From Antennarius striatus (lineage: Eukaryota > Chordata > Actinopteri > Lophiiformes > Antennariidae), in NCBI RefSeq assembly GCF_040054535.1, contig NC_090798.1:2898501-2962500 (forward strand): a stretch of DNA of 64,000 bases. The letters are read 5' to 3'. The position numbers and the translations under genes were made by a program. Below the pieces are notes generated by a model. That model ran no database searches. It saw only the letters and a program-made list of their open reading frames with translations, and was not told the origin of the DNA. Positions 31,883 through 63,808 of this stretch are shown here, in pieces. Position 1 is the stretch's first letter. Each line of letters begins with the position of its first letter.

Positions 31883-38850
<6,968 letters not shown>

Positions 38851-39115: not shown

Positions 39116-39688
39116 GTGTCCAAGATATGTGGCAGGTGAAATGTTCAGAACGTTTTGATTGTCATTTAGTAGCTAATATGAGCCTTGAGTATTTATATAT
39201 AAAAGGGAAGTAATTCATAAATTAATCTTGAAATAACATATGTTCTGGATTCATTACTTTAAAACAGGAAGTCAAAGATTTCAGGCTTGCAATACAGGGT
39301 AAACTTTTCTTGACATCAGCTCCTTGGTTAAGTCCGCCCAGGATTGAACTGGTGTGACTGGCAGCCTATCTGAATCTACCATGCCTCCCCCCTCAGTGTC
39401 TTTGCAGCTCTTAAATATCACCTTAAGAAGTGTTTTTCCGTTGGTAAAGGGGAGTTGTTACACCAGTCTAATGTTGTGGTTAAGTTCTGTCTGAGGTGTA
39501 GGTGTGTCTCAAGTGTTACCCAGGGAAACAATGACTAACGCACCAAACAATACAAAGTGACTGACAGGTGAATTTCAGGAGATCAAACCCCTCCTGTACT
39601 GAATATTCTTTATTTCTCCATGTGGATCACCTAAACCTCCTTTTTTATTTTTGTTACTGTTCTGCAGACAAACGCCTCCTCAGACAAC

Positions 39689-42600: not shown

Positions 42601-42761
42601 GCACCGTGTCGTTCTTTAATGTGGAGGACAACTCTCACATTTACACCTTCACCGGGTGTTTGTTCTCCGAGAGGATCTTCCCCTTCTTCAGCCCAGGTGT
42701 TTGCGACGAAGGGAGGAACACAGCGCCTTTGGTTATCACAGATGTCAAACTGGAGATGTAG
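39689..42761 (+). CDS. Class IV TRIM E3 ubiquitin ligase (RING, B-box, coiled coil, PRY-SPRY)
   Basis: Seven coding exons: 39689-40267, 40337-40432, 41044-41277, 41403-41550, 41623-41649, 42118-42293 and 42390-42761, in phase, giving 543 residues. The 96-, 234- and 27-base exons are the layout usual for TRIM genes. RING finger at residues 9-48 (C-x2-C, PCGHNFC, CPTC). Two Cys/His clusters follow: a B-box1-like one (CDVC to about 124) and a B-box2 (CDKHERLLEMFC to about 180). A coiled coil covers about 194-340, and a PRY-SPRY domain runs from about 362 to the end (LDPESAHPNILLSADGKQ, FWDIGVVKESANRKG, VGVFTDYEEGTVSFFNV). Such proteins ubiquitinate targets chosen by the SPRY domain; many fish members are expanded, virus-responsive families. 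It resembles the bloodthirsty/TRIM39-like group, but I cannot name an orthologue. The donor of exon 1 (AGA then GTCTAG) is weak and could be a few bases off. Confidence 0.9.
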
Positions 42762-43869: not shown

Positions 43870-45515
43870 ATGGATAAGGGGATGTTTAGTATTTTGGTTT
43901 TCTCAGGTGACAAAAATTTTCTTTTCATTCTTTTAAACTGAGCTTAAAACCATGGATGAATAACATAAATTAAAGCATTGATTTTGTTTTCTGCACAGGT
44001 CTATTCAGCTGTGCACTCCATGCAAAGGATCATGTGTATCACTTCATCCAGGAGGCAAAAACTTGGTCTGAAGCCCAGCAGTTTTGTAGAAAGGCATACG
44101 CCGATTTGGTCTCTATTGATAGCATTCAGGACCTGAAGAGATTAGAGCAGCTGGTTGACGTTAATAACTCCATGGTCTTCCTAGGGTTGCACAGAGAATG
44201 GCATTGGTCACTGTCTGACCATATCGACTTCACACAAGGAGAAAAGCCCTACTTGAACTGGGCCGATGGACACCCCACAAACCAACAATGTGCGTTCATG
44301 GGCCTCGATGGAAAAATGTTTTCTGGAGACTGTAACAGCAGAATGAGGTTCTCCTGCAACAATGGTGAGAAAACTTGCATAGTTTTTCATTTATCACCTG
44401 AAATCATTGTCTGATGTCCCTAAATGAGGATTGAATGTTCTACCCATTCTCTGAATATTTAACAAACAGCTGATGTTATTTGCAGTGGATCCTAATAGTA
44501 TTGAGAAGTATACTTACGAGGAAAATTCCAAGACCTGGAACGAAGCTCAGGCTTACTGCAGGAGAATGGATACAGAACTTGCCATAGTGCGGAACCCGCT
44601 TGAAAATAACGAGCTGATAGGCCGTGTGACCCATGTGTCACCCTTTTGGATTGGGCTGAAGAAGATGCTGTGGATGTGGTCCGATGGAAGTTATCCCTCA
44701 TTTGTACACTGGGATCCAGCCCAGTCCCTGCCTGCATCTTTGGATTGTGCGCTACTTGATGTCAGGAAAGTTTGTCTTGGAATGGAAGAAACAGACTGCA
44801 ATAATGCATTTCCTTTTCTTTGCTACAGTGGTAAACAACCTCTATGATCTTTACTAGAGAAACTTCAGTCAGATAGTTTCTAATTAGAAGAACCACTAGA
44901 TGTGCCCTCATGGAAAACAAGGCTGCAAAAATGAATCCCTGAATTACTTTTGAAATCCTGGCAGCCAATCAGAACGAATTTCTACTTTGGAATTTCTGTG
45001 ATGTGAAATAGATACTAAAAGTAAAAATGTTAAAAAGTAAATGTAATTGCTTTTCTGATAATATTGACACTCTTGTTCTTGTCTCGTAAATCTGTAGTTA
45101 CAACAAAAAGATGGTTAGTGTAAATTTAAAATGAACCCTAAATCTATTGTTTGCACTTCTTTGTAGTTCCAAAGTGGAAATACACCGTGAGAGTGAAGCT
45201 CTCTCCTAACAATTCCTTGCTGAATATGACTGATGTGGATGTGAGGACTTCAATCTTAGAAATGGTAACAACCACTTTCTACATATGATGTTTAGTATAC
45301 AGATCACCAAATAACACAGTTTTTAGCTCAATCAGAGGCCAAGTTGTTGTTGCTAAAAATGTCTCATGTGACCGTTATGCGTTCTTTCTGTTGCACAGGT
45401 GAAAGAACGACTGAAAAATAATGGAAACGAACCTATGAGCGTGGACTGGGTGAGGGTTCCAGAGAAGGAAGACAATCAGCCTCGTGAAATAATAGAAGAA
45501 GGGTGTCTTAAGTAA
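43870..45515 (+). CDS. Secreted protein with two C-type lectin domains
   Basis: Five coding exons: 43870-43906, 43999-44364, 44486-44830, 45167-45264 and 45399-45515, giving 320 residues. The first 21 residues are a signal peptide (FSILVFSGLFSCALHA). Exon 2 encodes one C-type lectin-like domain (TWSEAQQFCRK, FLGLHREWHWSLSD, LNWADGHPTNQQCAFM, FSCN). Exon 3 encodes a second (TWNEAQAYCRR, FWIGLKKMLWMWSDGS, DCNNAFPFLCYS). Exons 4 and 5 encode a 70-residue tail (KWKYTVRVKLSPNNSLLNMT, VKERLKNNG) that I know from other teleost lectin-like proteins. The cysteines of the fold are present, but the sugar-binding EPN or QPD triplet is not seen in either domain, so calcium-dependent sugar binding is doubtful. 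An untranslated exon probably ends near 43748 (AT then GTGAGT), with its acceptor at about 43858. The role is unknown; secreted immune or plasma recognition is the usual guess. Confidence 0.88.
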
Positions 45516-46320: not shown

Positions 46321-47222
46321 TCACATTGGAGCGACCATAAAACCGCTGAAGCTGGTCGTGCGGTCTGAAGCATAAATGCGACATTTGGCAGGCAGGCGCA
46401 CATACACCCTGTCTCCTGCGTTCAGCTGCAGGAATGCTGCGTTTCCTGCATTGTCACAGATGTTAGGACCTGGTTTATTTTCATCATAAGCCTTGATGAC
46501 GATTCTGTCGTTCTTTATCAGTGTCAGTCCTGACATGTCTTCTTTCTCAGCATGATAGAAAAAGGTGAAATAGTAATAACCAGAGCTGGGAGCTGTGAAC
46601 TCGCCTGTGGGAACACAAGACAGCTCATCAGATATAAAGGAAAAGATTTGGGAAAATGTTCAAAACGAGTGATAAAATGTAAAGTTTCCTCTTTCCATGT
46701 AATCATGGAAATTTGAAAAAAATTCCTTCACAGACATTGATCAGCTTGGGGTTACTACACCTAGAATTACTCAGCTGGTTTATTCCATAAATAACATTCA
46801 ATAACTCAAACAAACAACACAGCTTGTGCTTCTCATTCTCCTCATGTCCTGTAGTTTCAGTATATAACTAGGTAATGTAATTTAAACAGGGGATTCTGTT
46901 CACCTGAAGTTTTATCATAGCCTCCACCAACGTTTGTAATCGTGGTGTTGAAAACCAGAGTTCTGTCTGAAGGGAAGGGTCCATATTTCCCTCCTTGGTC
47001 TGCCACAGCAGTGAACATCACCTTTGAGGCTTCATGAAAAAACACAAAAGAAATTAAAGTCATGTTATTCAATCAAAATACTTTACATTCTTAAATAGCA
47101 ACTCATGCAAATTTAAAGTGGAATTAGATCAATTGGATTCCTATCAGTCAGGGACAAACTGTCAGAACAGGAGACAATTCAAATTCAAACCTTTCCAACA
47201 GAGTTCAGCTGTACGTACCCAT
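46321..47222 (-). CDS. Leaderless C1q-domain protein, array gene A
   Basis: Three coding exons on the minus strand: 47222-47219 (only ATGG), 47029-46904 and 46604-46321, giving 137 residues. The product starts MASKVMFTAVADQGGKYGPF and is almost only a C1q globular domain: GYYYFTFFYH, CDNAGNAAFLQLNAGDRVYV and the end FSGFMVAPM. No signal peptide, collagen stretch or membrane segment is present, so the protein should be cytosolic or leave the cell by an unusual route. This fits the group called cellular ghC1q. A TATA-like TCTATATAAA lies about 100 bases upstream of the ATG. The function is unknown; C1q domains form trimers that bind proteins or pathogen surfaces. Confidence 0.87.
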
Positions 47223-47320
47223 CTTGGTGTTTCAAGCTCTTGTGTTGGGATGGAAGGTTGGCTTTGAGTCGAGTCTGTGCTTCTTCTCCAAAGCTGTGAT
47301 GTGTAGGATCCCTGTTGCTG

Positions 47321-47330
47321 TTTATATAGA
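47321..47330 (-). promoter_or_regulatory. TATA box, C1q gene A
   Basis: Minus-strand TCTATATAAA, about 100 bases before the ATG. The same box at the same distance occurs before genes B, D and E. Confidence 0.65.
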
Positions 47331-47909
47331 GTCCAATCCATGATGAAATTCTCCAGAATCTGCTGATAGGAACAGGTGATACTGACTGATAAGATTCTGA
47401 AGAAAATTCTCAGGAAAATGTAGATCCACCTTTTACCTGGGTGTGTAGTGATTGTAGAGATTTAACAAGACAATAAACTATCTTCAAATTCTTTTTAAAT
47501 GGACAGGAAATAAAAGGAAGACCAACATGAATGACTGATGCAGGGATTTGTTTCTGTTGTATTTCATTTCTATTCTGTGACCTTTGAGGATTTCCCAGTG
47601 ATTTGTGTGTGTTTGAACTCATCTAGTATCTAACGTCTTGAGGCACTCTGAATGATCGTAGCCCTGATTAGCCTGTCGTATAGTCTAGAGGTGAATCATA
47701 CAGTCTCTGATAAGCTACAGTATAATACACACCTTTGAAATGGCCTAAAAAGAGGAATTCATATAACACAACCTTGTGCTTTTGTTTGTGTGTGTGATTT
47801 GTTGAACAGGAGAGGTAAGTGTGTAGACAATAGTACATCCTCCATATTTGACGGGTGGAAGTAGGACAGAGACAGACAGGTGACTGTCACAGTAGTCTAA
47901 TAGTTTAGT

Positions 47910-48130
47910 GCTGGAGTCTGTCCCGGCTGGCTATGAGCGAGCGGTGGGGCACACCCCGCATGAAACGGCAGCTCATCAAAGGGCGACACAGAACACACCA
48001 CTCACAGTCACACCCAGCACGATTTACAAAATCCAGTTCTCTTAAGTTATATGTATTTGAAGGTTGCAGGAAGACGGAGAACCCAGAGAAAACACACACA
48101 GACACAAGGCGAACAGAAAGCCTCCGGTGG
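47910..48130 (+). repeat. Decayed dispersed teleost repeat
   Basis: Contains ctggagtctgtcccggctgg, gagcgagcggtggggcacac and gcaggaagacggagaaccca in the order of the common fish repeat also seen at 32505-32800. The (A) to (B) spacer carries this copy inside the duplicated flank. Confidence 0.55.
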
Positions 48131-48605
48131 AATCACAACAACACGACCCCCTGGTCCAACGCTCTGCCCCCAATCCTCTGTGACAGTCTGAGCATCATAA
48201 ATACTGACTTATTTCCTGAGTGCTCTATTATGGTTCCATTTCATTTGAGTTCATTAAAACTTTAAAACAATATGATTTACATACTAACTAGTCAGCATCA
48301 AGACCATCCCTGTCCTTGTTTTTGTTTGCACCACCTTCATCCCAAACCTGAATCAAATCTTTGTACTTTAACCTTCATAGTAAAGTGTTTTGGCTCCTGT
48401 TACACAAAGAACCTTAGGATGATAATTTATTATTACGTTGCAAAACAAAATAAAATATTCCTATGAAAGTTGATATGTATTCATGGAAGAAGACACTGAT
48501 AAACTACAAGTACATCAGGAAACTCACCAGTCAGTTCTTTACCAACACAGATGAGAATTGGTTCTCAGACACCAGATAATCCAGGAGTCAGATTCTCATT
48601 ATATC

Positions 48606-48611
48606 TTTATT
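48606..48611 (-). terminator. Poly(A) signal, C1q gene B
   Basis: Minus-strand AATAAA within gcaaacaataaa, closing a 3' untranslated region of about 510 bases. Confidence 0.6.
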
Positions 48612-49116
48612 GTTTGCAAGAAAAATCACCATTGAATAGAAATGAGGAGAGACGGTCTCTGCTAAGAGCCGACAGCACATCTGAGATCAGATACATTTAC
48701 TGTAGCCAAAAGCAGGACGTACATGATTTTTCACTGTTTGTGACACAGAAAGACGTTTCAAACTCTTTCAGGTAAACTCCTTTATAATGAGTTCATTTAG
48801 TTTCCCAACAAAATACATGTGATCATAGTTGCAAAAGCACAATTATATTGGTAAGAAAGGAAATAACCTCATACATGACATCAGTGATTATTTTCTAAAT
48901 ATGTGGGCTGTTAAATGTAACTGGTTAATCTTTATTGTCACCAAAGTAAAGTCACACAGCCAATGGGATTCAATTAACATTTCAAAAAAAAGTCTTAACT
49001 CAAGGTAGTTTTTTTTCATGACATGTGTTTCAGATTCGACTTGAATGGGTAGTAATTCTATAGAGGCCTCATAGATCTCAGGTGTTTGGATTTATCCTTC
49101 TGGAGTCATCAAATTC

Positions 49117-50037
49117 TCACATTGGAGCGACCATAAAACCGCTGAAGCTGGTCGTGCGGTCTGAAGCATAAATGCGACATTTGGCAGGCAGGCGCACGTA
49201 CACCCTGTCTCCTGCGTTCAGCTGCAGGAATGCTGCGTTTCCTGCATTGTCACAGATGTTAGGACCTGGTTTATTTTCATCATAAGCCTTGATGACGATG
49301 CTGTCGTTCTTTATCAGAGTCAGTCCTGACATCTGTTCTTTCTCAGCATGATAGAAGAAGGTGAAATAGAAATAACCAGAGCTGGGAGCTGTGAACTCGC
49401 CTGTGGGAACACAAGACAGCTCATCAGATATAAAGGAGAAGATTTGGGAAAATGTTGAAAACGAGTGATAAAATGTAAAGTTTCCTCTTTCCATGTAATC
49501 ATGGAAATTTGAAAAAAATTCCTTCACAGACATTGATCAGCTCGGGGTTACTACACCTAGAATTACTCAGCTGGTTTATTCCATAAATAACATTCAATAA
49601 CTCAAACAAACAACACAGCTTGTGCTTCTCCTTCCCTTCATGTCCTGTAGTTTCAGTATATAACTAGGTAATGTAATTTAAACAGGGGATTCTGTTCACC
49701 TGAAGTTTTATCATAGCCTCCACCAATGTCTGTAATCGTGGTGTTGAAAACCAGAGTTCTGTCTGTAGGGAAGGGTCCATATTTCCCTCCTTGGTCTGCC
49801 ACAGCAGTGAACATCACCTTTGAGGCTTCATGAAAAAACACAAAAAAAACTAAAGTCATTATTCCATCTTAATACTTTACCTGTAACATTTCATGACAAT
49901 ACATTCTTAAATATCAATGATGCAAATTTAAAGTGGAATCAGATCAATTGGATTCCTATCAGTCAGGGACAAACTGTCAGAACAGGAGACAATTCAAATT
50001 CAAACCTTTCCAACAAAGATCAGCTGTACGTACCCAT
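49117..50037 (-). CDS. Leaderless C1q-domain protein, array gene B
   Basis: Coding exons 50037-50034, 49825-49700 and 49400-49117 give 137 residues. Exon 2 reads PFPTDRTLVFNTTITDIGGG, as in gene C, whereas exon 3 (KEQMSGLTLIKNDSIVIKAY, LPAKCRIYAS) is nearly that of gene A. As in its neighbours, the protein is a bare C1q domain without a leader. The frame is intact and splice sites are good, so it should be functional. Confidence 0.87.
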
Positions 50038-50135
50038 CTTGGTGTTTCAAGCTCTTGTGTTGGGATGGAAGGTTGGTTTTGAGTCGAGTCTGTGCTTCTT
50101 CTCCAAAGCTGTGATGTGTAGGATCCCTGTTACTG

Positions 50136-50145
50136 TTTATATAGA
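50136..50145 (-). promoter_or_regulatory. TATA box, C1q gene B
   Basis: Minus-strand TCTATATAAA about 100 bases before the ATG. Confidence 0.65.
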
Positions 50146-50769
50146 GTCCAATCCATCATTAAATTCTCCAGAATCTGCTGACAGGAACAGGTGATACTGA
50201 CTGATTAGACTTGTGAAGAAAATTCTCAGGAAAATGTGGATACACCCTTTACCTGGGTGTGTAGTGATTGTAGAGATTTAACAATGCAGTGAACCTCCTA
50301 CAATCATTTTTCATTTCTTTTCTGTGAGCGTTGACGATTTTCCAGCGGAATGCATTATGTGTGAACTTCACTAGAAATCTAACGTCTTGTTGCACGCTGC
50401 ATTAATATCCTGATTATTCTGTCACACAGTCTACAGCTGAATCCTAGTCTCTAATCAGATAGAGTAAAATCCTCAGATTGAAAATCAATCATCAGCAGCT
50501 GTGATGTGATTCTGTTTAAAAATACAGAAACCGATATGTGTTATTTGTACTTCACACACACATTGATCATGCTTCAAGATCATACATACTTATTGCATCA
50601 CCTGTGTTTTGTAAAGGCACAGACTTAAATAGACCTCATACGGAGGGGTTTAACTGTCCAACATACATCCAGACCAGAAACAACAGAAACAGATTACACA
50701 GACGCACAAAAAACCAAAATGACAAAATGAAGAAAATGAAGAAAATATTTTGAAATTGTTTATTAAAGA

Positions 50770-50965
50770 GGAATTCACAAGTCACAACTCTGTCCTGTGA
50801 TTTATGGGATCCCCATTGCTCCTTTTGTAGAGTTCGAAACAGGATAAGCTTCTATAGAATCTGCTGACAGGATGACGTGATCTGAAGTGATTTCTGAAGA
50901 AAATTCACAGGAAGACGTGGGTCCACCTTTTATCTGGGTGTGTCGGGACGACAGAGGTTTACCTA
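50770..50965 (-). repeat. Relic promoter of a lost C1q unit
   Basis: The order tgatttatgggatcccc, gtagagttcgaaac, atagaatctgctgacagg, gaagaaaattcacaggaag and ccttttatctgggtgtgt parallels the promoter and 5' flank of genes A to E. No exon of a C1q gene lies to its left, where the coding part should be. It looks like a truncated or deleted sixth minus-strand copy, older than A to E. Confidence 0.6.
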
Positions 50966-51049
50966 GGCGTTAAAGAAAACATATCTTCACATACCTTCAT
51001 GCAAGTGCTTAAAACTGATGCAAAGATTTGATCTTCAGTTGCCTCCTAA

Positions 51050-51250
51050 AAAATATTGGTCGCGGGTATTGCTTGAGTGTATAACATTTTGCCACGGGCC
51101 AGAGGTGGGTTGCACCCCAGATGAGATGCCATCTCATTGCATGGCCACGCAGAAGACGTCATTCAGCCCGAGACCCCACAGAAAACCCATGCAGCCACAG
51201 GGAGAACAAAGAAACTGCACAGAAAAGCCTCAGGTGGAATCACAACAACA
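51050..51250 (+). repeat. Decayed dispersed teleost repeat
   Basis: ttggtcgcgggtattgcttg, gggccagaggtgggttgcac and cagccacagggagaacaaag follow the landmarks of the fish repeat seen at 47910 and 57450. The copy is diverged. Confidence 0.5.
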
Positions 51251-52110
51251 CTGTCACGATCTGTTTAAAGAGAGCCACAACCCAGATGCAGACGCAACGC
51301 TGAATGTAGATTTATTTAGAAAGTTCAAACAGAAAATGACCTTTCAGGAAAAATACTGTTACATAAAGTAACAGAGAAGCACCACTGTGTGCAAAGTAAC
51401 AAATAAACACAAAATCACGTCTAAGTAGTGATATTCCCTTTGACACGGCGCTCCGAACCACACCCCAGACTCGGTAGTGTTTTTTTCTGAACCACTGTTA
51501 TCGGAGCCTGCTTCACACATGGAAAAACCATGTGACCGACGACATTTGAACCAGTCAAGTGGTTTGTTCGCCATCTGAACCAGTTTAGTGGGTCAGATCA
51601 ATGATGAAACATTGAGGCGCGCTGCCTATCGGGTCAATACCTTGTGGATTGATTTTATTAGCTTTTGGATTGCATAAGAATATACTGTAAATATACTCCT
51701 ATAAATAATAATGGGAAGCAAGTCAGTTCTGAGATTAAAGTCACAATTCTGACTTTTATCTCACAATATAAACCTTGTTTTTCCAGGAGACCTAATCCTC
51801 TGATGTATGACACATATTATGTATTTTAATATACGTATATACATGCAGGAACATGTAATCTATACCTACTATTGCTATACTGAACTCTGCAAGAATCAAT
51901 AATCATAAGTCAATTTCATATAATGTATGGCTATGATAAACCAAACAACGATTACTACATTCAATTAAGTTATATTCCGTTTTATTTAAAAATGTATACA
52001 GTACAGGAAACCCCAAAATGCTGTTTTCTAGGGCCATTGACCATTGTGTGACTGCAGTACAGCCAGCCTCCCAGCAGAGGGTACTAGTGTTCTCAATGAA
52101 TGAAGTTTTG

Positions 52111-52279
52111 AGTATTTTCCGTACTATAAGGCGAACCTACAAGCCTAAAATTTTCTCGTAAGCCTACAGTGCACCTTCAAATCCGGTGTGGCTTATATAT
52201 GGAATAAATTACAAAATAAACATTTCATTAAAGGTGTGCCTTATAACCCAGTGCGCCTTATAGTGCAGAAAATACTGTA
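52111..52279. mobile_element. Short TIR DNA transposon (MITE), copy 2
   Basis: agtattttccgtactataag at the left and the complement tagtgcagaaaatactgt at the right are the ends of the element also found at 27724-27982. The inside again carries ccttcaaatccggtg-like phrases. It is shorter than copy 1 and its left tip has diverged. Confidence 0.7.
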
Positions 52280-52467
52280 ATGAACCAGTTTTCAACACAA
52301 TTTCCAAAGGGGTTTGAAGCTTCATGAAGCCCCACTAAGCACAAGAAACCAGAGGAACAGGAAACAGGAGATCAAGTCTAGAAAATCATGTGTATCACAA
52401 CCGGAAACTTGTGACACAAAACAACACGAAGAGACGGCCTAAAAAGCCTCAGGCTAATCAAACTGAG

Positions 52468-52519
52468 GGGGCACAGGTGTGGAGATGAGGCACAGGTGTG
52501 GAGATGAGGCACAGGTGTG
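52468..52519. repeat. Tandem repeat, 19-base unit
   Basis: ggcacaggtgtggagatga is repeated about two and a half times near the right end of the composite transposon. Confidence 0.85.
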
Positions 52520-52632
52520 ACACTGATAAACTACAAGTACATCAGGAAACTCACCAGTCAGTTCTTTACCAACACAGATGAGAATTGGTTCTCAGACACC
52601 AGATAATCCAGGATTCTGATTCTCATTATATC

Positions 52633-52638
52633 TTTATT
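52633..52638 (-). terminator. Poly(A) signal, C1q gene C
   Basis: Minus-strand AATAAA within gcaaacaataaa, about 505 bases after the stop of gene C. Confidence 0.6.
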
Positions 52639-53141
52639 GTTTGCAAGAAAAATCACCATTGAATAGAAATGAGGAGAGACGGTCTCTGCTAAGAGCCGAC
52701 AGCACATCTGAGATCAGATACATTTACTGTAGCCAAAAGCAGGACGTACATGATTTTTCACTGTTTGTGACACAGAAAGACGTTTCAAACTCTTTCAGGT
52801 AAACTCCTTTATAATGAGTTCATTTAGTTTCCCAACAAAATACATGTGATCATAGTTGCAAAAGCAAAATTATATTGGTAAGAAGGGAAATAACCTCATA
52901 CATGACATCAGTGATTATTTTCTAAATATGTGGGCTTTTAAATGTAACTGGCTAATCTTTATTGTCACCAAAGTAAAGTCACACAGCCAATGGGATTCAA
53001 TTAACATTTCAAAAAAAGTCTTAACTCAAGGTAGTTTTTTTCATGACATGTGTTTCAGATTCGACTTGAATGGGTAGTAATTCTATAGAGGCCTCATAGA
53101 TCTCAGGTGTTTGGATTCATCTGTCTAGAGTCATCAAATTC

Positions 53142-54081
53142 TCACATTGGAGCGACCATAAAACCGCTGAAGCTGGTTGTGCGGTCTGAAGCATAAATGA
53201 CACAGTTTGCAGGCAGGCGCACGTACACCCTGTCTCCTGCGTTCAGCTGCAGGAATGCTCCGTTTCCTGCATTGTCACAGAAGTTGGGACCTGGTTGATT
53301 TTGGTCATAAGCGTTGACGATGATGTTGCTGTTCTTCATCAGGGTCAGTCCTGACTTCTGTGCTTTCCCAGCATGATAGAAGAAGGTGAAATAGAAATAA
53401 CCCGAGCTGGGAGCTGTGAACTCACCTGTGGGAACACAAGACAGCTCATCAGATATAAAGGAAAAGATTTGGGAAAATGTCAAAGTTGATAAAAGATGAA
53501 ATCATAGCAATCAAACCAATCATGGAAAATTGAAAAAAATGCTTTGAGACATTGACCAGCTGGGGGTTACTACACCCAGAATTACTCAGCTGGTTTATTC
53601 CATAAATAACATTCAATAATTCAACTTAACAGCAAGAAATCAATACATAGATCCACATCACAGCTTGTTTTTCTCCTTCCCTTCATGTCCTGTAGTTTCA
53701 GTATATAACTAGGTAATGTAATTTAAACAGGGGATTCTGTTCACCTGAAGTTTTATCATAGCCTCCACCAATGTCTGTAATCGTGGTGTTGAAAACCAGA
53801 GTTCTGTCTGTAGGGAAGGGTCCATATTTCCCTCCTTGGTCTGCCACAGCAGTGAACATCACGTTTGAGGCTTCATGAAAAACACAAAAAAAACTAAAGT
53901 CATTATTCCATCTTAATATTTTACCTGTAACATTTCATGACAATACATTCTTAAATATCAATGATGCAAATTTAAAGTGGAATTAGATCAATTGGATTCC
54001 TATCAGTCAGGGACAAACTGTCAGAACAGGAGACAATTCAAATTCAAACCTTTCCAACAAAGATCAGCTGTACGTACCCAT
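53142..54081 (-). CDS. Leaderless C1q-domain protein, array gene C (divergent exon 3)
   Basis: Coding exons 54081-54078, 53870-53745 and 53425-53142 give 137 residues starting MASNVMFTAVADQ. Exon 2 and the upstream flank are close to gene B. Exon 3 is the most divergent of the five minus copies (KSGLTLMKNSNIIVNAYDQN, FCDNAGNGAFLQL, ANCVIYAS) and in places resembles the plus-strand genes F and G (SGLTLMK). The TATA-like box is altered (TCTATTTAAA). The frame is intact. Confidence 0.87.
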
Positions 54082-55118
54082 CTTGGTGTTTCAAGCTCTT
54101 GTGTTGGGAAGAAAGGTTGGTTTTGAGTCGAGTCTGTGCTTCTTCTCCAAAGCTGTGATCTGTAGGATCCCTGTTGCTGTTTAAATAGAGTCCAATCCAT
54201 GATGAAATTCTACAGAATCTGCTGACAGGAACAGGTGATCCTGACTGATTAGACTTGTGAAGAAAATTCTCAGGAAAATGTAGATACACCCTTTACCTGG
54301 GTGTGTAGTGATTGTAGAGATTTAACAATGCAGTGAACCTCCTACAATCATTTTTCATTTCTTTTCTGTGAGCGTTGAGGATTTTCCAGCGGAATGCATT
54401 ATGTGTGAACTTCACTAGAAATCTAACGTCTTGTTGCACGCTGCATTAATATCCTGATTATCCTGTCACACAGTCTACAGCTGAATCCTAGTCTCTAATC
54501 ACATGGAGTAAAATCCTCAGATTTAAAATCAATCGTCAGCAGCTGTGATGTGATTCTGTTTAAAAATACAGAAACCGATATGTGTTATTTGTACTTCACA
54601 CACACATTGATCATGCTTCAAGATCATACATACTTATTGCATCACCTGTGTTTTGTAAAGGCACAGACTTAAATAGACCTCATAAGGAGGAGTTTAACTG
54701 TCCAACAACTGTCCAGTCTGAGAATCGTACAGATTCATTTATATCCTTAGTGCTCTTTTGTGGTTCCATTTTATTTTAGTCCATTAAAATTTTGAAAAAA
54801 ATTATTTACATACTAAGCAGTTGGAATCAAGACCATCCCTGTCCTTGTTTTTGTTTGCACCACCTTCATCCCAAACCTGAATCAAATCTTTGTACTTTAA
54901 CCTTCGTAGTAATGTGGTTTGACACCTGTTACACAAAGTAAGGATTTCATATAGATACAGTATTATGACATTACAAAACAAAATAAAAATTTCATGTGAA
55001 AGAAGACACTGATAAACTACAAGTACATCAGGAAACTCACCAGTCAGTTCTTTACCAACACAGATGAGAATTGGTTCTCAAACACCAGATAATCCAGGAT
55101 TCAGATTCTCATTAGATC

Positions 55119-55124
55119 TTTATT
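55119..55124 (-). terminator. Poly(A) signal, C1q gene D
   Basis: Minus-strand AATAAA within gcaaacaataaa, about 395 bases after the stop of gene D. The 3' untranslated region lacks about 100 bases present in B, C and E. Confidence 0.6.
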
Positions 55125-55517
55125 GTTTGCAAGAAAAATCAACATTGCGTAGAAATGAGGAGAGACGGTCTCTGCTAAGAGCCGACAGCACATCTGAGAT
55201 CAGATACATTTACTGTAGCCAAAAGCAGGACATACATGATTTCCCTCATGGTGTTTTTCACTGTTTGTGACACAGGAAGACGTTTCAAACTCTTTCAGGT
55301 AAACTCCTTTATAATGAGTTCATTTAATTTCCCAACAAAATACATGTGATCATAGTTCCAAAAGCTCAAATATACTGTAAAGAAAGGAAATTATCAGTGA
55401 TTATTTTCTCAATGTGTGAGCTGTTGAATGTTTCATTAAAGTTTATTATTTCCAAACTAAAGTCACACAGCCAATGGGATTCAGTTAACATTTCAACAAA
55501 AGTCCACACTCAAATTC

Positions 55518-56380
55518 TCACATTGGAGCGACCATAAAACCGCTGAAGCTGGTCGTGCGGTCTGAAGCGTAAATGCGACAGTTAGCAGGAAGGCGCACGT
55601 ACACCCTGTCTCCTGCGTTCAGCTGCAGGAATGCTGCGTTTCCTGCATTGTCACAGATGTTAGGACCTGGTTTATTTTCATCATAAGCCTTGACGACGAT
55701 GCTGTCGTTCTTTATCAGAGTCAGTCCTGACATCTGTTCTTTCTCAGCATGATAGAAGAAGGTGAAATAGAAATAACCAGAGCTGGGAGCTGTGAACTCG
55801 CCTGTGGAAACACAAAAAAGCTCGTTGGATTCCTTCACAGACATTGATGAGCTGAAGGTTACTACACCCAGAATTACTCACCTGGCTCATTCCATAAATA
55901 ACATTCAATAATTCAACTAAATAGCAAGTAAACAATACATAGATCCACATCACAGCCTGTGCTTCTCCTTCTCCTCATGTCCTGTAGTTTCAGTATATAA
56001 CTAGGTAATGTAATTTAAACAGGGGATTCTGTTCACCTGAAGTTTTATCATAGCCTCCACCAACGTTTGTAATCGCGGTGTTGAAAACCAGAGTTCTGTC
56101 TGTAGGGAAGGGTCCATATTTCCCTCCTTGGTCTGCCACAGCAGTGAACATCACCTTTGTTTCTTGAAAAAATAATAAAAAACAAAGAAGTTAAAATCAC
56201 GTTATCCCATCAAAAACCGTTAGCAGTAGCATTTCATGACAATACATGCTTAATATCAATTCATGCAAATTTAAGGTGGAATTAGATCAATTGGATTCCT
56301 ATCAGTCAGGGACAAACTGTCAGAACAGGAGACAATTCAAATTCAAACCTTTCCAACAAAGATCAGCTGTACGTACCCAT
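55518..56380 (-). CDS. Leaderless C1q-domain protein, array gene D
   Basis: Coding exons 56380-56377, 56162-56037 and 55801-55518 give 137 residues. The start of exon 2 differs from the other copies (METKVMFTAVADQ rather than MASK or MASN), because the acceptor region has been replaced. Exon 2 reads NTAITNVGGGYD, closest to A; exon 3 (KNDSIVVKAY, LPANCRIYAS) is nearly identical to E. The intron between exons 2 and 3 is about 235 bases against about 299 in A, B and E. The frame is intact. Confidence 0.86.
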
Positions 56381-56478
56381 CTTGGTGTTTCAAGCTCTTG
56401 TGTTGGGATGGAAGGTTGGTTTTGAGTCGAGTCTGTGCTTCTTCTCCAAAGCTGTGATGTGTAGGATCCCTGTTGCTG

Positions 56479-56488
56479 TTTATATAGA
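56479..56488 (-). promoter_or_regulatory. TATA box, C1q gene D
   Basis: Minus-strand TCTATATAAA about 100 bases before the ATG. Confidence 0.65.
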
Positions 56489-57449
56489 GTCCAATCCATG
56501 ATGAAATTCTACAGAATCTGCTGACAGGAACAGGTGATACTGACTGATAAGATTCTGAAGAAAATTCTCAGGAAAATGTAGATCCACCTTTTACCTGGGT
56601 GTGTAGTGATTGTAAAGATTTAACAAGACATTGAACCTCTTCAAATTCTTTTTAAATGGACAGGAAATAAAAGGAAGACCAACATGAATGACTGATGCAG
56701 GGATTTGTTTCTGTTGTATTTCATTTCTATTCTGTGACCTTTGAGGATTTCCCAGTGATTTGTGTGTGTTTGAACTCATCTAGTATCTAACGTCTTGAGG
56801 CACTCTGAATGATCGTAGCCCTGATTAGCCTGTCGTATAGTCTAGAGGTGAATCATACAGTCTCTGATAAGCTACAGTATAATACACACCTTTGAAATGG
56901 CCTAAAAAGAGGAATTCATATAACACAACCTTGTGCTTTTGTTTGTGTGTGTGTGATTTGTTGAACAGGAGAGGTAAGCGAGAAAACAATAGTACATCCT
57001 CCATATTTGACAGGTGGAAGTAGGGGAGAACAAATGAACAAACTGCACAGAAAAGCCTCCGGTGGAATCACAACAACACGACCCACTGGTCCAACGCTCT
57101 GCCCCCAGTCCCCCATGACAGTCTGAACATCATAAAGACTGACTCACATTTATTGCTCTATTGTGGTTCCATTTTATTTGAGTTTATTAAAACATTAAAC
57201 AATATAATTAAACAAAATTAATGATGATAAATCATTCAGTATGGATGTCTATTGGTTGATAAAAACATGACTTTTTGAATAATTTAGAGGAGTTTCAGGG
57301 TTTCTTACAAGGCTGCAACAGGTTAAAATGAGTTGTTTGAATCACAAGCTCAGTCCCAGAAATAATTAAACTCCTTTCTCAAGGTACTACTGTATCACGT
57401 TTTAAGATCAGTTAAGATGGCCTTAAGAGTTGAACCAATAATCAAGTCA

Positions 57450-57620
57450 TTCATTCATTTATCTTCTTGAAGATGAAACAGTCATAATCATTTTGTCTTC
57501 AGCTGCTTCCCAGAAGTGCTGGTCGCAGGTTTTCCTGGAGTCTAATCCCATGTGGCTATGGGCAAGAGGTGGGGTACACCCTGGAAGAGACGCCAGCTCA
57601 CTGCAGGGCCACATGGAACA
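57450..57620 (+). repeat. Decayed dispersed teleost repeat
   Basis: gtgctggtcgcaggttttcc, gcaagaggtggggtacaccc and ctcactgcagggccaca are the landmarks of the common fish repeat seen elsewhere in the window. It lies in the D to E spacer. Confidence 0.55.
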
Positions 57621-58081
57621 CACCACCGCTCTACTGTTCTTCACCCAATCATTCATGACAGTCTGAGCATTATAAATACTGACTTATTTCCCGAGTACTC
57701 TGTTGTGGTTCCATTTCATTTGAGTTCACTAAAAACTTTAAAACAATATGATTTACATACTAACTAGTCAGCATCAAGACCATCCCTGTCCTTGTTTTTG
57801 TTTGCACCACCTTCATCCCAAACCTGAATCAAATCTTTGTACTTTAACCTTCATAGTAAAGTGTTTTGGCTCCTGTTACACAAAGGACCTTAGGATGATA
57901 ATTTGTTATTAAGTTGCAAAACAAAATAAAAATTTCCAATGAAAGTTGATATGTATTCATGGAAGAAGACACTGATAAACTACAAGTACATCAGGAAACT
58001 CACCAGTCAGTTCTTTACCAACACAGATGAGAATTGGTTCTCAGACACCAGATAATCCAGGATTCTGATTCTCATTAGATC

Positions 58082-58087
58082 TTTATT
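58082..58087 (-). terminator. Poly(A) signal, C1q gene E
   Basis: Minus-strand AATAAA within gcaaacaataaa, about 505 bases after the stop of gene E. Confidence 0.6.
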
Positions 58088-58592
58088 GTTTGCAAGAAAA
58101 ATCAACATTACATAGAAATGAGGAGAGACGGTCTCTGCTAAGAGCCGTTAGCACATCTGAGATCAGATACATTTACTGTAGCCAAAAGCAGGACGTACAT
58201 GATTTTTCACTGTTTGTCACACAGAAAGACGTTTCAAACTCTTTCAGGAAAACTCCTTTATAATGAGTTCATTTAGTTTCCCAACAAAATACATCTGATC
58301 ATAGTTGCAAAAGCAAAATTATATTGGTAAGAAGGGAAATAACCTCATACATGACATCAGTGATTATTTTCTAAATATGTGGGCTGTTAAATGTAACTGG
58401 TTAATCTTTATTGTCACCAAAGTAAAGTCACACAGCCAATGGGATTCAATTAACATTTCAAAAAAAAGTCTTAACTCAAGGTAGTTTTTTTTCATGACAT
58501 GTGTTTCAGATTCGACTTGAATGGGTAGTAATTGTATAGAGGCCTCATAGATCTCAGGTGTTTGGATTTATCCTTCTGGAGTCATCAAATTC

Positions 58593-59515
58593 TCACATTG
58601 GAGCGACCATAAAACCGCTGAAGCTGGTCGTGCGGTCTGAAGCATAAATGCGACAGTTGGCAGGAAGGCGCACGTACACCCTGTCTCCTGCGTTCAGCTG
58701 CAGGAATGCTGCGTTTCCTGCATTGTCACAGATGTTAGGACCTGGTTTATTTTCATCATAAGCCTTGACGACGATGCTGTCGTTCTTTATCAGAGTCAGT
58801 CCTGACATCTCTTCTTTCCCAGCATGATAGAAGAAGGTGAAATAGAAATAACCAGAGCTGGGAGCTTTGAACTCGCCTGTGGAAACACAAAAAAGTTCAT
58901 CAGATATAAAGGAAAAGATTTGGGAAAATGTTCAAAATGAGTGATAAAATGTAAAGTTTCCTCTTTCCATGTAATCATGGAAATTTGAAAAAAATTCCTT
59001 CACAGACATTGATCAGCTCGGGGTTACTACACCTAGAATTACTCAGCTGGTTAATTCCATAAATAACATTCAATAACTCAAATAAACAACACAGCTTGTG
59101 CTTCTCCTTCTCCTCATATCCTGTAGTTTCAGTATATAACTAGGTAATGTAATTTAAACAGGGGATTCTGTTCACCTGAAGTTTTATCATAGCCTCCACC
59201 AATGTTTGTAATCGTGGTGTTGAAAACCAGAGTTCTGTCTGTAGGGAAGGGTCCATATTTCCCTCCTTGGTCTGCCACAGCAGTGAACATCACGTTTGAG
59301 GCTTCATGAAAAAACACAGAAGGAATTAAAGTCATGTTATTCCATCAAAATACTTTACCTGTAACATTTCATGACAATATATTCTTAAATATCAATGATG
59401 CAAATTTAAGGTGGAATTAGATAAATTGGATTCCTATCAGTCAGGCACAAACTGTCAGAACAGGAGACAATTCAAATTCAAACCTTTCCAACAAAGATCA
59501 GCTGTACGTACCCAT
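58593..59515 (-). CDS. Leaderless C1q-domain protein, array gene E
   Basis: Coding exons 59515-59512, 59301-59176 and 58876-58593 give 137 residues starting MASNVMFTAVADQ. Exon 3 opens with FKAPSSGYFYFTFFYHAGKE and is otherwise nearly that of D. Exon 2 has NTTITNIGGG. It is the last minus-strand copy and stands head to head with gene F. The frame is intact. Confidence 0.87.
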
Positions 59516-59613
59516 CTTGGTGTTTCAAGCTCTTGTGTTGGGATGGAAGGTTGGTTTTGAGTCGAGTCTGTGCTTCTTCTCCAAAGCTGTGATGTGTAGG
59601 ATCCCTGTTTCTG

Positions 59614-59623
59614 TTTATATAGA
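59614..59623 (-). promoter_or_regulatory. TATA box, C1q gene E
   Basis: Minus-strand TCTATATAAA about 100 bases before the ATG. Confidence 0.65.
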
Positions 59624-59939
59624 GTCCAATCCATGATGAAATTCTACGGAATCTGCTGACAGGAACAGGTGATACTGACTGATATGTCTTCTGAAGAAAT
59701 TTCTCAGGAAAATGTAGATCCACCTTTTACCTGGGTGTGTAGTGTTTGTAGAGATTTAACAAGACATTGAACCATCGTCAAATCTTTTTAAAATGGACAG
59801 TGAATAAAAGAAAGACCAACATGAATGACTGATGCAGGGATTTGTTTCTGTTGTATTTCATTTCTATTCTGTGACCTTTGAGGATTTCTCAGTGATTTGT
59901 GTTGTGTTTGAATTAATCTAGTATCTAACATCTAAATGT

Positions 59940-60620
59940 AACGCAATGCAATGTAAAATAAATTGAAGTATCCCCTTATGTTAAACAACTCTGAATTTAT
60001 TGCTTATTCAAGTTACAAACATTACAGTTGCAAAGTAAAAATAAGTTTGCTTGTTTCTCTGTTATATCATAAATCATAAAATTTTAATTTGTCATGTTAT
60101 GAACCCAGAAAGCTCCATCAATCAAGGATCAAACTATCCAATGAATAAAGAAAAAGGATTTAAGTTATTAATTAAGTGATAAATAGTTGTTAAAAATCTA
60201 ATTCTAATGCTAAGTACAGTAATTCCACCGAAGCTGCGTCTCTGATTTAATGTTGAAATAGTGTCAATGTCCTTTTCTCATAGAGGTAAAGTAAACACTG
60301 TCAGATTCTCATGAATCACTAGAGATATACAACAAAAAATTCCTTTCTGCTTATCATTCGTGTTTAATTATTGTTGTTGAATTTCTATAGTAAAAATATC
60401 CTACGATATAGTTCAAACATTCCTCAAACAGTCACAGAGTGTCGATACAATCAGTCAACAGTTCTTGTACTATTGTAATGGTCTTTCTGACATTCATTTA
60501 TAACATAGTTCAACGGCTGGGAAAAACAAAAAAACTTTCAACACTGGTGGGGGGTGGATTCATAATTCCTGTGAAACTTGAGCCAGCATGATGTGTAACG
60601 CTCTGGAGTTTCTGCACGCA
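59940..60620. other. Spacer between head-to-head C1q genes E and F
   Basis: AT-rich, with no gene seen. The similarity to the flanks of A and D fades near 59,930, so the duplicated block ends there. Confidence 0.55.
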
Positions 60621-60626
60621 TTGAAG

Positions 60627-60636
60627 TCTATAAAAG
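60627..60636 (+). promoter_or_regulatory. TATA box, C1q gene F
   Basis: TCTATAAAAG about 90-100 bases before the ATG at 60724, the spacing seen in the minus-strand copies. Confidence 0.6.
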
Positions 60637-60723
60637 TAGCGACAAGGATCCTGCATATCACAGCTTTGGAGACACCTCACATAAACCATTTGCCATTCCA
60701 GAATCAGTCATCAGGTCAAACAG

Positions 60724-61481
60724 ATGGGTAGGTACAGCAAAAGCTCATCTATAAAGGATGCAATGGAATTTAGGGTGATTCTCTCGATTTATTATTATAT
60801 TTATATTTTATTTTTGACAATGTGCTGTCTTTGATGCATGAATAATTGGTAATACAGCCTGCTAAGACAATAGTACATGCATTTAAGTATTGAACAAAGT
60901 TTAATAAAGTGTGGAGAGAGAATAACATGATGACAATTTTTTGACTTATAAAGGGTCGGAGGCATATTTCACTGCAGTAGCAGACCTTGGCGGGAACTTT
61001 GGACCCTTTGCTGAAGAAAGAACTCTGGTTTTCAACACGGAGATCACAAACATTGGTGGCCATTATGACTGCACTTCAGGTAAATGCATCAGATTTAGTC
61101 ACACATTAATAGTAATATAATTACAGGTGATTATACTTTTAGTAACCTATACAGGAGTAAATACATTAACTCACTTTTGTTTCCACAGGAATCTTCAAAG
61201 CTCCCGTTCCAGGTTATTACTACTTCACCTTCTTCTATCACGCTGGAAAACAACATCAGTCAGGACTGACTCTGATGAAGGACCACGATGTCATTGTCAG
61301 GGCATTTGATAAGAATCAAAAAGGCGCTGAATTCTCTGACAATGCAGGGAATGCAGCTTTCCTGCAGCTGGATAGGGGAGACAACGTGTTTGTGCATCTG
61401 CCTGCTAATTGTCATGTTTATGCCTCCAAAAGCACAACATCCTTCAGTGGTTTTCTGATCAGACAATTGGGGGAATTTTAA
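60724..61481 (+). CDS. Leaderless C1q-domain protein, array gene F
   Basis: Coding exons 60724-60727 (ATGG), 60954-61079 and 61189-61481 give 140 residues starting MGSEAYFTAVADLGGNFGPF. The domain carries NTEITNIGGHYD, PGYYYFTFFYHAGKQHQSG, SDNAGNAAFLQLDRGDNVFV and FSGFLIRQLGEF. It has the same four-base first exon and bare C1q layout as A to E but clearly different sequence, so it split from them earlier. No signal peptide is present. Confidence 0.87.
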
Positions 61482-61923
61482 TTTTAATTTTGGTATTTTT
61501 TTTAATATTTCTTTTTTTTTAGAATTTGATGATTCTGTGATGATTCCAACAATCTGACTTCCATCATTCTTTTTATATTCTCATTAAAATTTAAATTCAG
61601 ATCCTTTTCAGAGAGGCTCCGACTGGTTTACCTTGATTTGACACTTTTATGCATTTCTTTGCCTACAAATGTGTTCTTTTTCAGTGACAATAACATTGCA
61701 TCATATAAATTAAAGCATGAACATTATATATACAATCACTGACATCACATTCCTATACTTTTTATGTGTATGCTTTTACTCATCTAAATGCATGTGTCTT
61801 CTTGAGTAATTCAACTGAATAAAAAGTAGTTAACCTCCTTCAATATTGAAGTAAATGAATTACCTGGTGGTGGCCTCCTTTCAGTCATAGCTGTAATGCT
61901 GATGGTTCCACTTACCGGCAAAC

Positions 61924-61929
61924 AATAAA
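61924..61929 (+). terminator. Poly(A) signal, C1q gene F
   Basis: AATAAA inside gcaaacaataaaagtctcat. This context matches the 3' ends of the minus-strand copies, which shows that the 3' end was part of the ancestral unit. Confidence 0.6.
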
Positions 61930-61959
61930 AGTCTCATGAGAATCTGAATATTTTGTCAT

Positions 61960-62680
61960 CTGGTGTTTTAATACCAACTCGACAAGAAGATATCATAAAT
62001 GAATATAATATATATTAAAAGTGGATGTGGGAGTACACAGAGTCTAACAGACAAAGAAAAGACAGAAGAGTTTCCATGGACCGTGGTGTCCGCAGACAGT
62101 GACTCACAGTGAGAGTAGAGAGAAAGTTTAGACAGGAATGAAAGTGTCTGTTCAGTGAGGGCGATGCAGATGCAATAAATGGGAAATATTTATGACCAAC
62201 ATTATCACTATTTTCCGAGCATCCAAAGGTTTCTGCCTAGCATGTCAGACATAATTTACGATAAACAAAATGTTTAAAGTTAATAATGCATTATTGAAGC
62301 TAGCATTTTGATCTGAATAAAGATTTTTTTTTTTAGAATTTATATATGCAAAGTAGTTTCACCTTATAAACTAATAGTCGTCTAATATTTAACTACACTT
62401 CATTAACCCCCAGTGAAAAAATTATTTTTCCAAAATGCACACAAAGTCAACAAAGATATGACTCACATTAAATGTTTGCACTACAAATGCAGGGTGTGCA
62501 CACACTGACTTGAAGAATTTCTTCAGAAATCAAGAACCACTGTGATAAAACGGATTCTCCAGAACTGGGAGTGGGCCACCTTAAATGAGACTGTGTAAAA
62601 GCAGGTGCAACGTCTAACAGCTTTGTTTGAAGAGGAAGAGCAATTCGTTAAACCGCCTGTCGATACCAGCGACTGAACCA
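61960..62680. other. Spacer between C1q genes F and G
   Basis: AT-rich, no gene seen. The promoter of gene G should lie near 62,590 (gtgtaaaagcagg), without a good TATA box. Confidence 0.5.
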
Positions 62681-62685
62681 CAGAG

Positions 62686-63808
62686 ATGGGTAGGTTGGAT
62701 AAGAAATTCAAACATAAAACATTTTAGGATGAATTGTTTAATTATCATAACAGAAAATATTCAAAAATTGGATACGTGAGACAAAAAAATATGCCTGCAA
62801 GGCATCCAGTTGATTCCATTGTGTTGGAGAGTTCATGCATGTTGTATTACAAAGTTAGACTGAAATTGCTGCAACAAATAACATGATGGGTGTGTTTTGT
62901 TTTATGGAGAAGACGATGTAATGTTCACTGCAGTGGCAGACCATAGTTGGAACTGTGGACCCTATGAAGAGGACACAACGCTGATTTTCAACAAAGTGAT
63001 TACAAACATCGGTGATGGCTACGACAACATTTCAGGTAAATACACCAGATACAGTCGCTGATAATTACCTGTCGATCACCAGGTTTACAAACAGTTAACT
63101 CTGTAAAGCTAGAAGTTTAACCACATTTTACCTTAATTCCATTGTTCATTTGAATAATTCAATTTATTGACTCTTATTTACTTTTTTGTGCTTTCAAGTA
63201 TTGCTATTACAATACATACCTTAAAAATAATTACAAATTGACATGTCAGTTCATAATAACACATGTAGACATGACTGTAGTTTGACTGACATTGCTTGCT
63301 TTACAATAATCATGGTATATTCAATATGTCACTATAATTTTAACTTCATTAAATTTTGTTTTTGTGTAATGACTAATAAAAAAATTGCACTTTTTGCCAT
63401 GAACTTTTTTAAAAAAAATGCAACATTTTAATTTTACTAAGTGTTTTTGATTAACTTTTTATTTTTATTTTTACAAAATCCGTTAAATCCTTTAAAATCA
63501 ATAAGTAGCATTTTGTTCCCGCAGGACTCTTCACAGCTTTTACTTCAGGTTATTACTATTTCACCCTCTTCTACCATGCTGGAACAGAACATGTATCGGG
63601 GCTGACTCTGATGAAGAACAGCGAAGTCATCATCAATACATTTGAAGACTTTGAGAATGGCCCTGGCTTCACCGATAATGCTGGAAACTCAGCGTTTGTG
63701 AAACTCGAGAGAGGAAACGTAGTGTTTGTTCGCCTACCTGCTCACTGTCAGGTTCATGCATCAGACAGCACGACCACCTTCAGTGGTTTTCTGGTTAGTA
63801 AGACATGA
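62686..63808 (+). CDS. Leaderless C1q-domain protein, array gene G
   Basis: Coding exons 62686-62689 (ATGG), 62913-63035 and 63525-63808 give 136 residues starting MDDVMFTAVADHSWNCGPYE. Core motifs are GYYYFTLFYHAGTEHVSG, TDNAGNSAFVKLERGNVVFV and FSGFLVSKT. Exon 2 is one codon shorter than in the others. It is the most divergent of the seven and has a longer second intron (489 bases). No signal peptide is present. The 3' end runs toward the right edge. Confidence 0.86.

Follow-up and report, generated by a model that had tools for sequence, protein, structure and literature searches.

A seven-gene array of apparently leaderless C1q domain proteins in Antennarius striatus

A cellular globular-head class of C1q proteins (cghC1q) was reportedly set out for vertebrates too by Carland and Gerwick in 2010. 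Proteins of this class consist of a single C1q domain with neither a collagen stalk nor a signal peptide, and a review separates them from the secreted forms (PMC10672478). The examples in the passages compared from that review are invertebrate and include mollusc and leech C1q proteins without a signal peptide. Some leaderless invertebrate C1q domain-containing (C1qDC) proteins are there considered probably secreted, and for others an intracellular location or an inaccurate leader prediction is proposed. The leaderless C1q proteins claimed in an earlier note on the locus described here are therefore not without precedent, since they correspond to a named class. Tandem C1qDC arrays have been reported in oyster (PMC6835236), the zebrafish has 52 C1q genes as cited in PMC10623068, and several C1q-like genes changed with gill health scores in a salmon gill study (PMC7316992). 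Among the papers listed in a literature search, no title or beginning of an abstract mentions a leaderless vertebrate C1q array.

Caprin-2, a cytoplasmic activation/proliferation associated protein, carries a C1q domain that forms a homotrimer, and according to the parts of the source compared its trimerisation supports LRP5/6 phosphorylation (PMC11480233).

The window investigated here is a stretch of 64,000 nucleotides from contig NC_090798.1 of A. striatus (positions 2,898,501 to 2,962,500), and all coordinates below are positions within it. A tblastn search was started from a single last exon and repeated with the exon peptides as queries. It yielded seven last exons, each with a corresponding second exon; five of these pairs are encoded on the minus and two on the plus strand. 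The resulting genes, numbered g1 to g7 by position, are as follows:

g1, 46321-47222, minus strand: exon 1 coding part 47219-47222, exon 2 46904-47029, exon 3 46321-46604; 137 aa; splice model, C1q domain at 82.1 bits
g2, 49117-50037, minus strand: exon 1 coding part 50034-50037, exon 2 49700-49825, exon 3 49117-49400; 137 aa; splice model, C1q match
g3, 53142-54081, minus strand: exon 1 coding part 54078-54081, exon 2 53745-53870, exon 3 53142-53425; 137 aa; splice model, C1q match
g4, 55518-56380, minus strand: exon 1 coding part 56377-56380, exon 2 56037-56162, exon 3 55518-55801; 137 aa; splice model, C1q match
g5, 58593-59515, minus strand: exon 1 coding part 59512-59515, exon 2 59176-59301, exon 3 58593-58876; 137 aa; splice model, C1q match
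g6, 60724-61481, plus strand: exon 1 coding part 60724-60727, exon 2 60954-61079, exon 3 61189-61481; 140 aa; splice model, C1q match
g7, 62686-63808, plus strand: exon 1 coding part 62686-62689, exon 2 62910-63035, exon 3 63525-63808; 137 aa; splice model, C1q match

The seven intact C1q genes that the earlier note had placed at 46321-63808 were confirmed as seven open frames in which 14/14 introns are GT-AG. Its limits were exact: the interval starts and finishes with the final base of a stop codon, that of g1 at 46321 and that of g7 at 63808. Genes g1-g5 are on the minus strand and g6 and g7 on the plus strand, with g6 head to head with g5; the array may extend beyond the end of the window, which lies 192 nt past g7. 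All seven genes share a plan of three exons. The coding part of exon 1 is ATGG only, followed by a donor starting GTA[CG]GT; exon 2 (126 nt) codes for the first third of the protein and exon 3 for the remainder. Both junctions are in phase 1 in every gene, the inner intron being located at TSG/EF, and the introns measure 189-226 nt (intron 1) and 109-489 nt (intron 2). The predicted N-termini of g1 to g7 are MASK, MASK, MASN, METK, MASN, MGSE and MEDD. Gene g4 is odd among g1-g5 both in its METK start, where the others have MAS, and in its intron 2 of 235 nt, compared to 299-319 nt in g1, g2, g3 and g5. Being interrupted by introns, the genes appeared only in pieces in the open reading frame lists: two last exons were present in the ATG-to-stop list (≥80 aa), and the stop-to-stop list (≥70 aa) held the last exons of all seven genes and second-exon pieces of g1, g2, g3 and g5. 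Half-domain genes starting within an intron, as the open reading frame list suggested, were rejected, since exon 2 supplies the missing part.

The Pfam C1q domain (PF00386) was detected above the cutoff in all seven proteins (74-91 bits against 23.7), and g3 gave an additional TNF match below its cutoff (17.7 against 23). By sequence the proteins belong to the C1q/TNF superfamily. The Pfam match starts at residues 20-22, but in a phmmer comparison with cerebellin-1 the C1q alignment of g2, the one sequence tried, spanned residues 3-137, and the domain is therefore taken as complete. With only a few residues preceding the first aligned C1q strand in 7/7 models, there is no collagen or coiled-coil stalk, and the claim that the genes encode a C1q domain and almost nothing else holds for every copy, each being essentially one C1q domain of 137-140 aa. 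Complement C1q chains, in contrast, have a collagen region before the globular domain. The fish plasma proteins C1q-LP3 (256 aa) and TCBP1 (245 aa) share the C1q domain and membership of an expanded family with the array, as do the oyster genes, which also share tandem duplication, but these two plasma proteins are longer and have leaders in the descriptions compared (PMC10623068, PMC6835236). One globular domain, no stalk and no signal peptide are likewise the features of the cghC1q class, to which the array proteins are assigned by their gene models. Compared with the invertebrate examples in the review passages (PMC10672478), the class would here be represented by a seven-gene fish array with a first exon coding for little more than the start codon. 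Such an exon was not met in the C1q literature passages compared; the leaderless class and tandem arrays were already known. Relatives were also searched for by pattern, giving 168 matches in prokaryote contigs and 488 in viral contigs, none of them confirmed; as the contig sets were prokaryotic and viral, this says little about fish.

No strongly hydrophobic N-terminus was found in any of the seven gene models, in agreement with the claimed absence of a signal peptide. The highest hydrophobicity over 8 residues within the first 35 was 1.23-1.56 in the seven proteins compared to 3.04 in the leader of a cerebellin-like gene in the same window, which served as the single positive control. Nor does an upstream ATG extend the frame, as had also been stated: ATGs in the preceding 160 nt are all out of frame in the seven genes, and an in-frame stop precedes the start codon by 12 nt in g1-g5 and g7 and by 42 nt in g6. 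A signal peptide might still be supplied by a missed upstream exon spliced in phase 1 to exon 2, the ATGG exon then being a minor or alternative start. Each gene was scanned upstream of exon 2, as far as the next gene, for leader-like open reading frames ending at a phase-1 donor; this was a simple scan with cut-offs and a splice matrix set by us, which weaker or more distant exons may escape. Three candidates were found: g1 (47838-47732) and g4 (57004-56889) are each preceded by one with a strong donor, and g6 by one whose donor is weak. About 3.5 were expected by chance from a Markov model summed over the seven genes (0.33-1.1 per gene). The stretches at 47732-47838 and 56889-57004 on the minus strand, each with a hydrophobic open reading frame and a strong phase-1 donor, are copies of one duplicated upstream stretch, so that the g1 and g4 candidates share one origin. 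The same scan found none for g2, g3, g5 and g7, and in 7/7 genes the ATGG exon itself is accompanied by a promoter-like block and a donor start that are both conserved. We therefore regard a missed leader exon as quite improbable. Gene anatomy, as distinct from transcripts or proteins, gives good support to the leaderless reading through the upstream stops in all seven genes, the conserved start-site block and the chance-level number of leader exons; a gene model cut short by error does not seem to account for the start.

The start-site block was identified in the promoter alignments. Three promoter stretches are listed here:

47223-47468, minus strand: g1 core promoter and 5′ UTR, with TATATAAA at −106 and, about 30 nt past it, the conserved TCACAGCTTTGG block
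60620-60672, plus strand: 53 nt of the g6 promoter, from the TATA region to the 5′ UTR, with 81% identity to that of g2
50795-50961, minus strand: promoter-like remnant of an eighth unit, sharing 72-78% identity with the promoters of g1-g5

A TATA-like element precedes the ATG by 91-106 nt and takes the form of TATATAAA in g1, g2, g4 and g5, TATTTAAA in g3 and TATAAAAG in g6. The block ACAGCTTTG is invariant in the seven aligned promoters, about 30 nt past the TATA-like element in six and closer to it in g7. Stretches homologous to the g1 promoter precede g2-g5 and, in shorter form, g6, and the likeness between the g2 and g6 promoters has been kept despite a dS of 0.60 between the genes. The g7 promoter had no blastn match other than itself. 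The TATA boxes and poly(A) signals that the earlier note had ascribed to each gene were thus recovered for six of the seven: g7 has only a weak GTAAAAG in place of a clear TATA-like element, and poly(A) signals were found within about 600 nt in 6/7 genes, none being present for g7 in the remaining 192 nt of the window. The proposal of a defence or mucosal gene family gained no support from the promoters. Of nine motifs scanned for in the 600 nt upstream of each gene, six were listed in the result, and of these only AP-1-type sites were matched, in g7, so that the scan says little.

Continued duplication, on the other hand, was supported. Genes g1-g5 repeat at intervals of 2.4-4.0 kb and share 83-96% identity over stretches of 0.8-2.2 kb. 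The closest copy changes along the unit, which suggests sequence exchange among g1-g5: g4 is 100% identical to g1 in the 150-column block lying farthest upstream, but in the exon 3 blocks g2 and g5 (97-98%) are as close to g4 as g1 (94-96%) or closer, and g2 and g3, which share 95-99% from the upstream region to the end of intron 1, fall to 81% in one block of intron 2. Judged by divergence, g1-g5 are younger copies than g6 and g7, which are separated from the others by dS values of 0.60-0.82 and from one another by 0.75. Exon layout, phases and start context are the same in 7/7 genes despite these distances. Among g1-g5, 25 positions are variable, 11 of them through g3 alone, which is the most diverged of the five.

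dN/dS was 0.38-0.50 in the 11 pairs that include g6 or g7, and per site replacement changes were significantly rarer than silent ones in the three older pairs given a Fisher test (g6-g7, p = 2e-5; g2-g6, p = 0.001; g2-g7, p = 0.002). Among g1-g5 the ratio was 0.46-0.99 in nine of the ten pairs and 2.06 in g2-g5, where it reflects 1 silent and 7 replacement changes (p = 0.69). Replacement changes did not significantly exceed silent ones in any of the six pairs tested out of 21, a comparison of low power for the young pairs. The rapid evolution proposed in the earlier note is thus supported only in part: the young copies g1-g5 have a mosaic look, but none of the six pairs shows a significant replacement excess, and purifying selection acts on the three older ones tested. 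That the array consists mostly of dead or unexpressed copies would fit the few changes and the range of dN/dS (0.46-2.06) among g1-g5, and units do decay, as the relic promoter at 50795-50961 illustrates. No C1q exon match was found near this relic on the same strand, nor an ATGG/GT donor downstream of it in the printed sequence, as read by eye. Seven open frames, 14 intact introns and the purifying selection in the older pairs argue against this interpretation, and we consider it very improbable indeed.

Other genes were detected in the window. The gene at 31883-33858 on the minus strand, which we take to be cerebellin-1-like from its similarity to a query peptide, has at least three exons and a hydrophobic leader; no Pfam domain was matched by its first exon when taken by itself. 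It lies in the same neighbourhood as the array, and the C1q domain alignment of g2 to cerebellin-1 runs from residue 3 to the end. However, the cerebellin-like gene has a leader and introns after FDQ and TIQ (by eye), whereas the array genes have no leader and an intron at TSG/EF; the cerebellin N-terminal region is absent from them as well. An origin of the array as recent copies of this neighbour was rejected, since the intron positions differ. Two adjacent C-type lectin domains are encoded beside the array at 43974-44847 on the plus strand, and a TRIM-like gene is located at 39635-42761 on the same strand (RING and B-box 39635-40273, SPRY 42363-42761). Further away are a large exon of an N4BP1 homologue with KH, UBA-like and DUF7070 domains (14430-16289, minus strand), kinase-domain pieces with weak Pfam matches, both below the cutoff (23176-24524, plus strand), and a piece of an adenylate/guanylate cyclase catalytic domain (869-1105, minus strand).

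The best single-domain match among PDB chains was Caprin-2 (4ous), with 53 bits by one sequence and 62 bits by profile, and its lead over the single-domain chains of C1q-related factor, C1ql and cerebellin is small. Higher ranks went to three-domain fusions of cerebellin-1, C1q and adiponectin, whose scores sum their domains. Like Caprin-2, the array proteins would combine an intracellular location with a C1q trimer, which is here expected from homologues; the HR1 and HR2 regions preceding the C1q domain in Caprin-2, as described in the parts of the source compared (PMC11480233), are absent from the array proteins.

The array may be explained as follows: on the evidence of gene anatomy, each gene, with its own promoter-like start and ATGG first exon, forms one complete gC1q jelly-roll from two further exons, without leader or stalk. 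Judging by the family, the protein would most likely fold in the cytosol into a trimer of about 45 kDa, made of identical or mixed chains. Only single trimers are expected, because the proteins have no stalk. Such a trimer could act as a three-fold binder, or as a scaffold that clusters a partner in the way the Caprin-2 C1q domain does in LRP5/6 signalling, and the Caprin-2 precedent indicates that a C1q trimer can work in an intracellular protein. Tandem duplication and the apparent exchange seen as a similarity mosaic in g1-g5 would then yield slightly different subunits. We think it somewhat more probable than even that the genes encode cytosolic gC1q trimers serving as multivalent binders or scaffolds, as cghC1q proteins of ray-finned fish.

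The cysteines are consistent with this location. C118 is common to all seven proteins, and the second cysteine shifts from C93 in g1-g5 to C41 in g6 and C17 in g7, so that no intrachain disulfide is conserved; an invariant cysteine without a constant partner would be compatible with a reducing compartment. Sequons occur at N29 in 4/7 proteins, at N75 in 3/7 and at N41 in g7 only, g6 having none, and are weak evidence either way, being idle in the cytosol yet not conserved. The lack of a conserved sequon or disulfide also speaks against leaderless export, by which trimers made in the cytosol would, as galectins do, leave by a non-classical route or when cells are damaged, and would attach to microbes or cell surfaces as the secreted C1q lectins of fish and bivalves do. 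We know of no export motif for the C1q family. In favour of such export, the passages compared from the review (PMC10672478) list leaderless mollusc C1qDC proteins whose expression and role in immunity are taken to make secretion probable, and the tandem-duplicated C1qDC genes of oyster are called lectin-like (PMC6835236). Export ranks second to the cytosolic binder or scaffold and is, in our judgement, rather unlikely. A more specific form of the cytosolic reading, in which stalkless, leaderless C1q domains expanded in a vertebrate lineage into a trimeric recognition family that, with mixed, near-identical subunits, senses or clusters intracellular targets such as microbes reaching the cytosol, is more doubtful still.

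C1q proteins are usually taken as extracellular, and the array comprises a constrained and repeatedly duplicated set that appears leaderless from the promoter onward. It thereby offers a clean genetic system for asking what role a C1q trimer may have inside a vertebrate cell.
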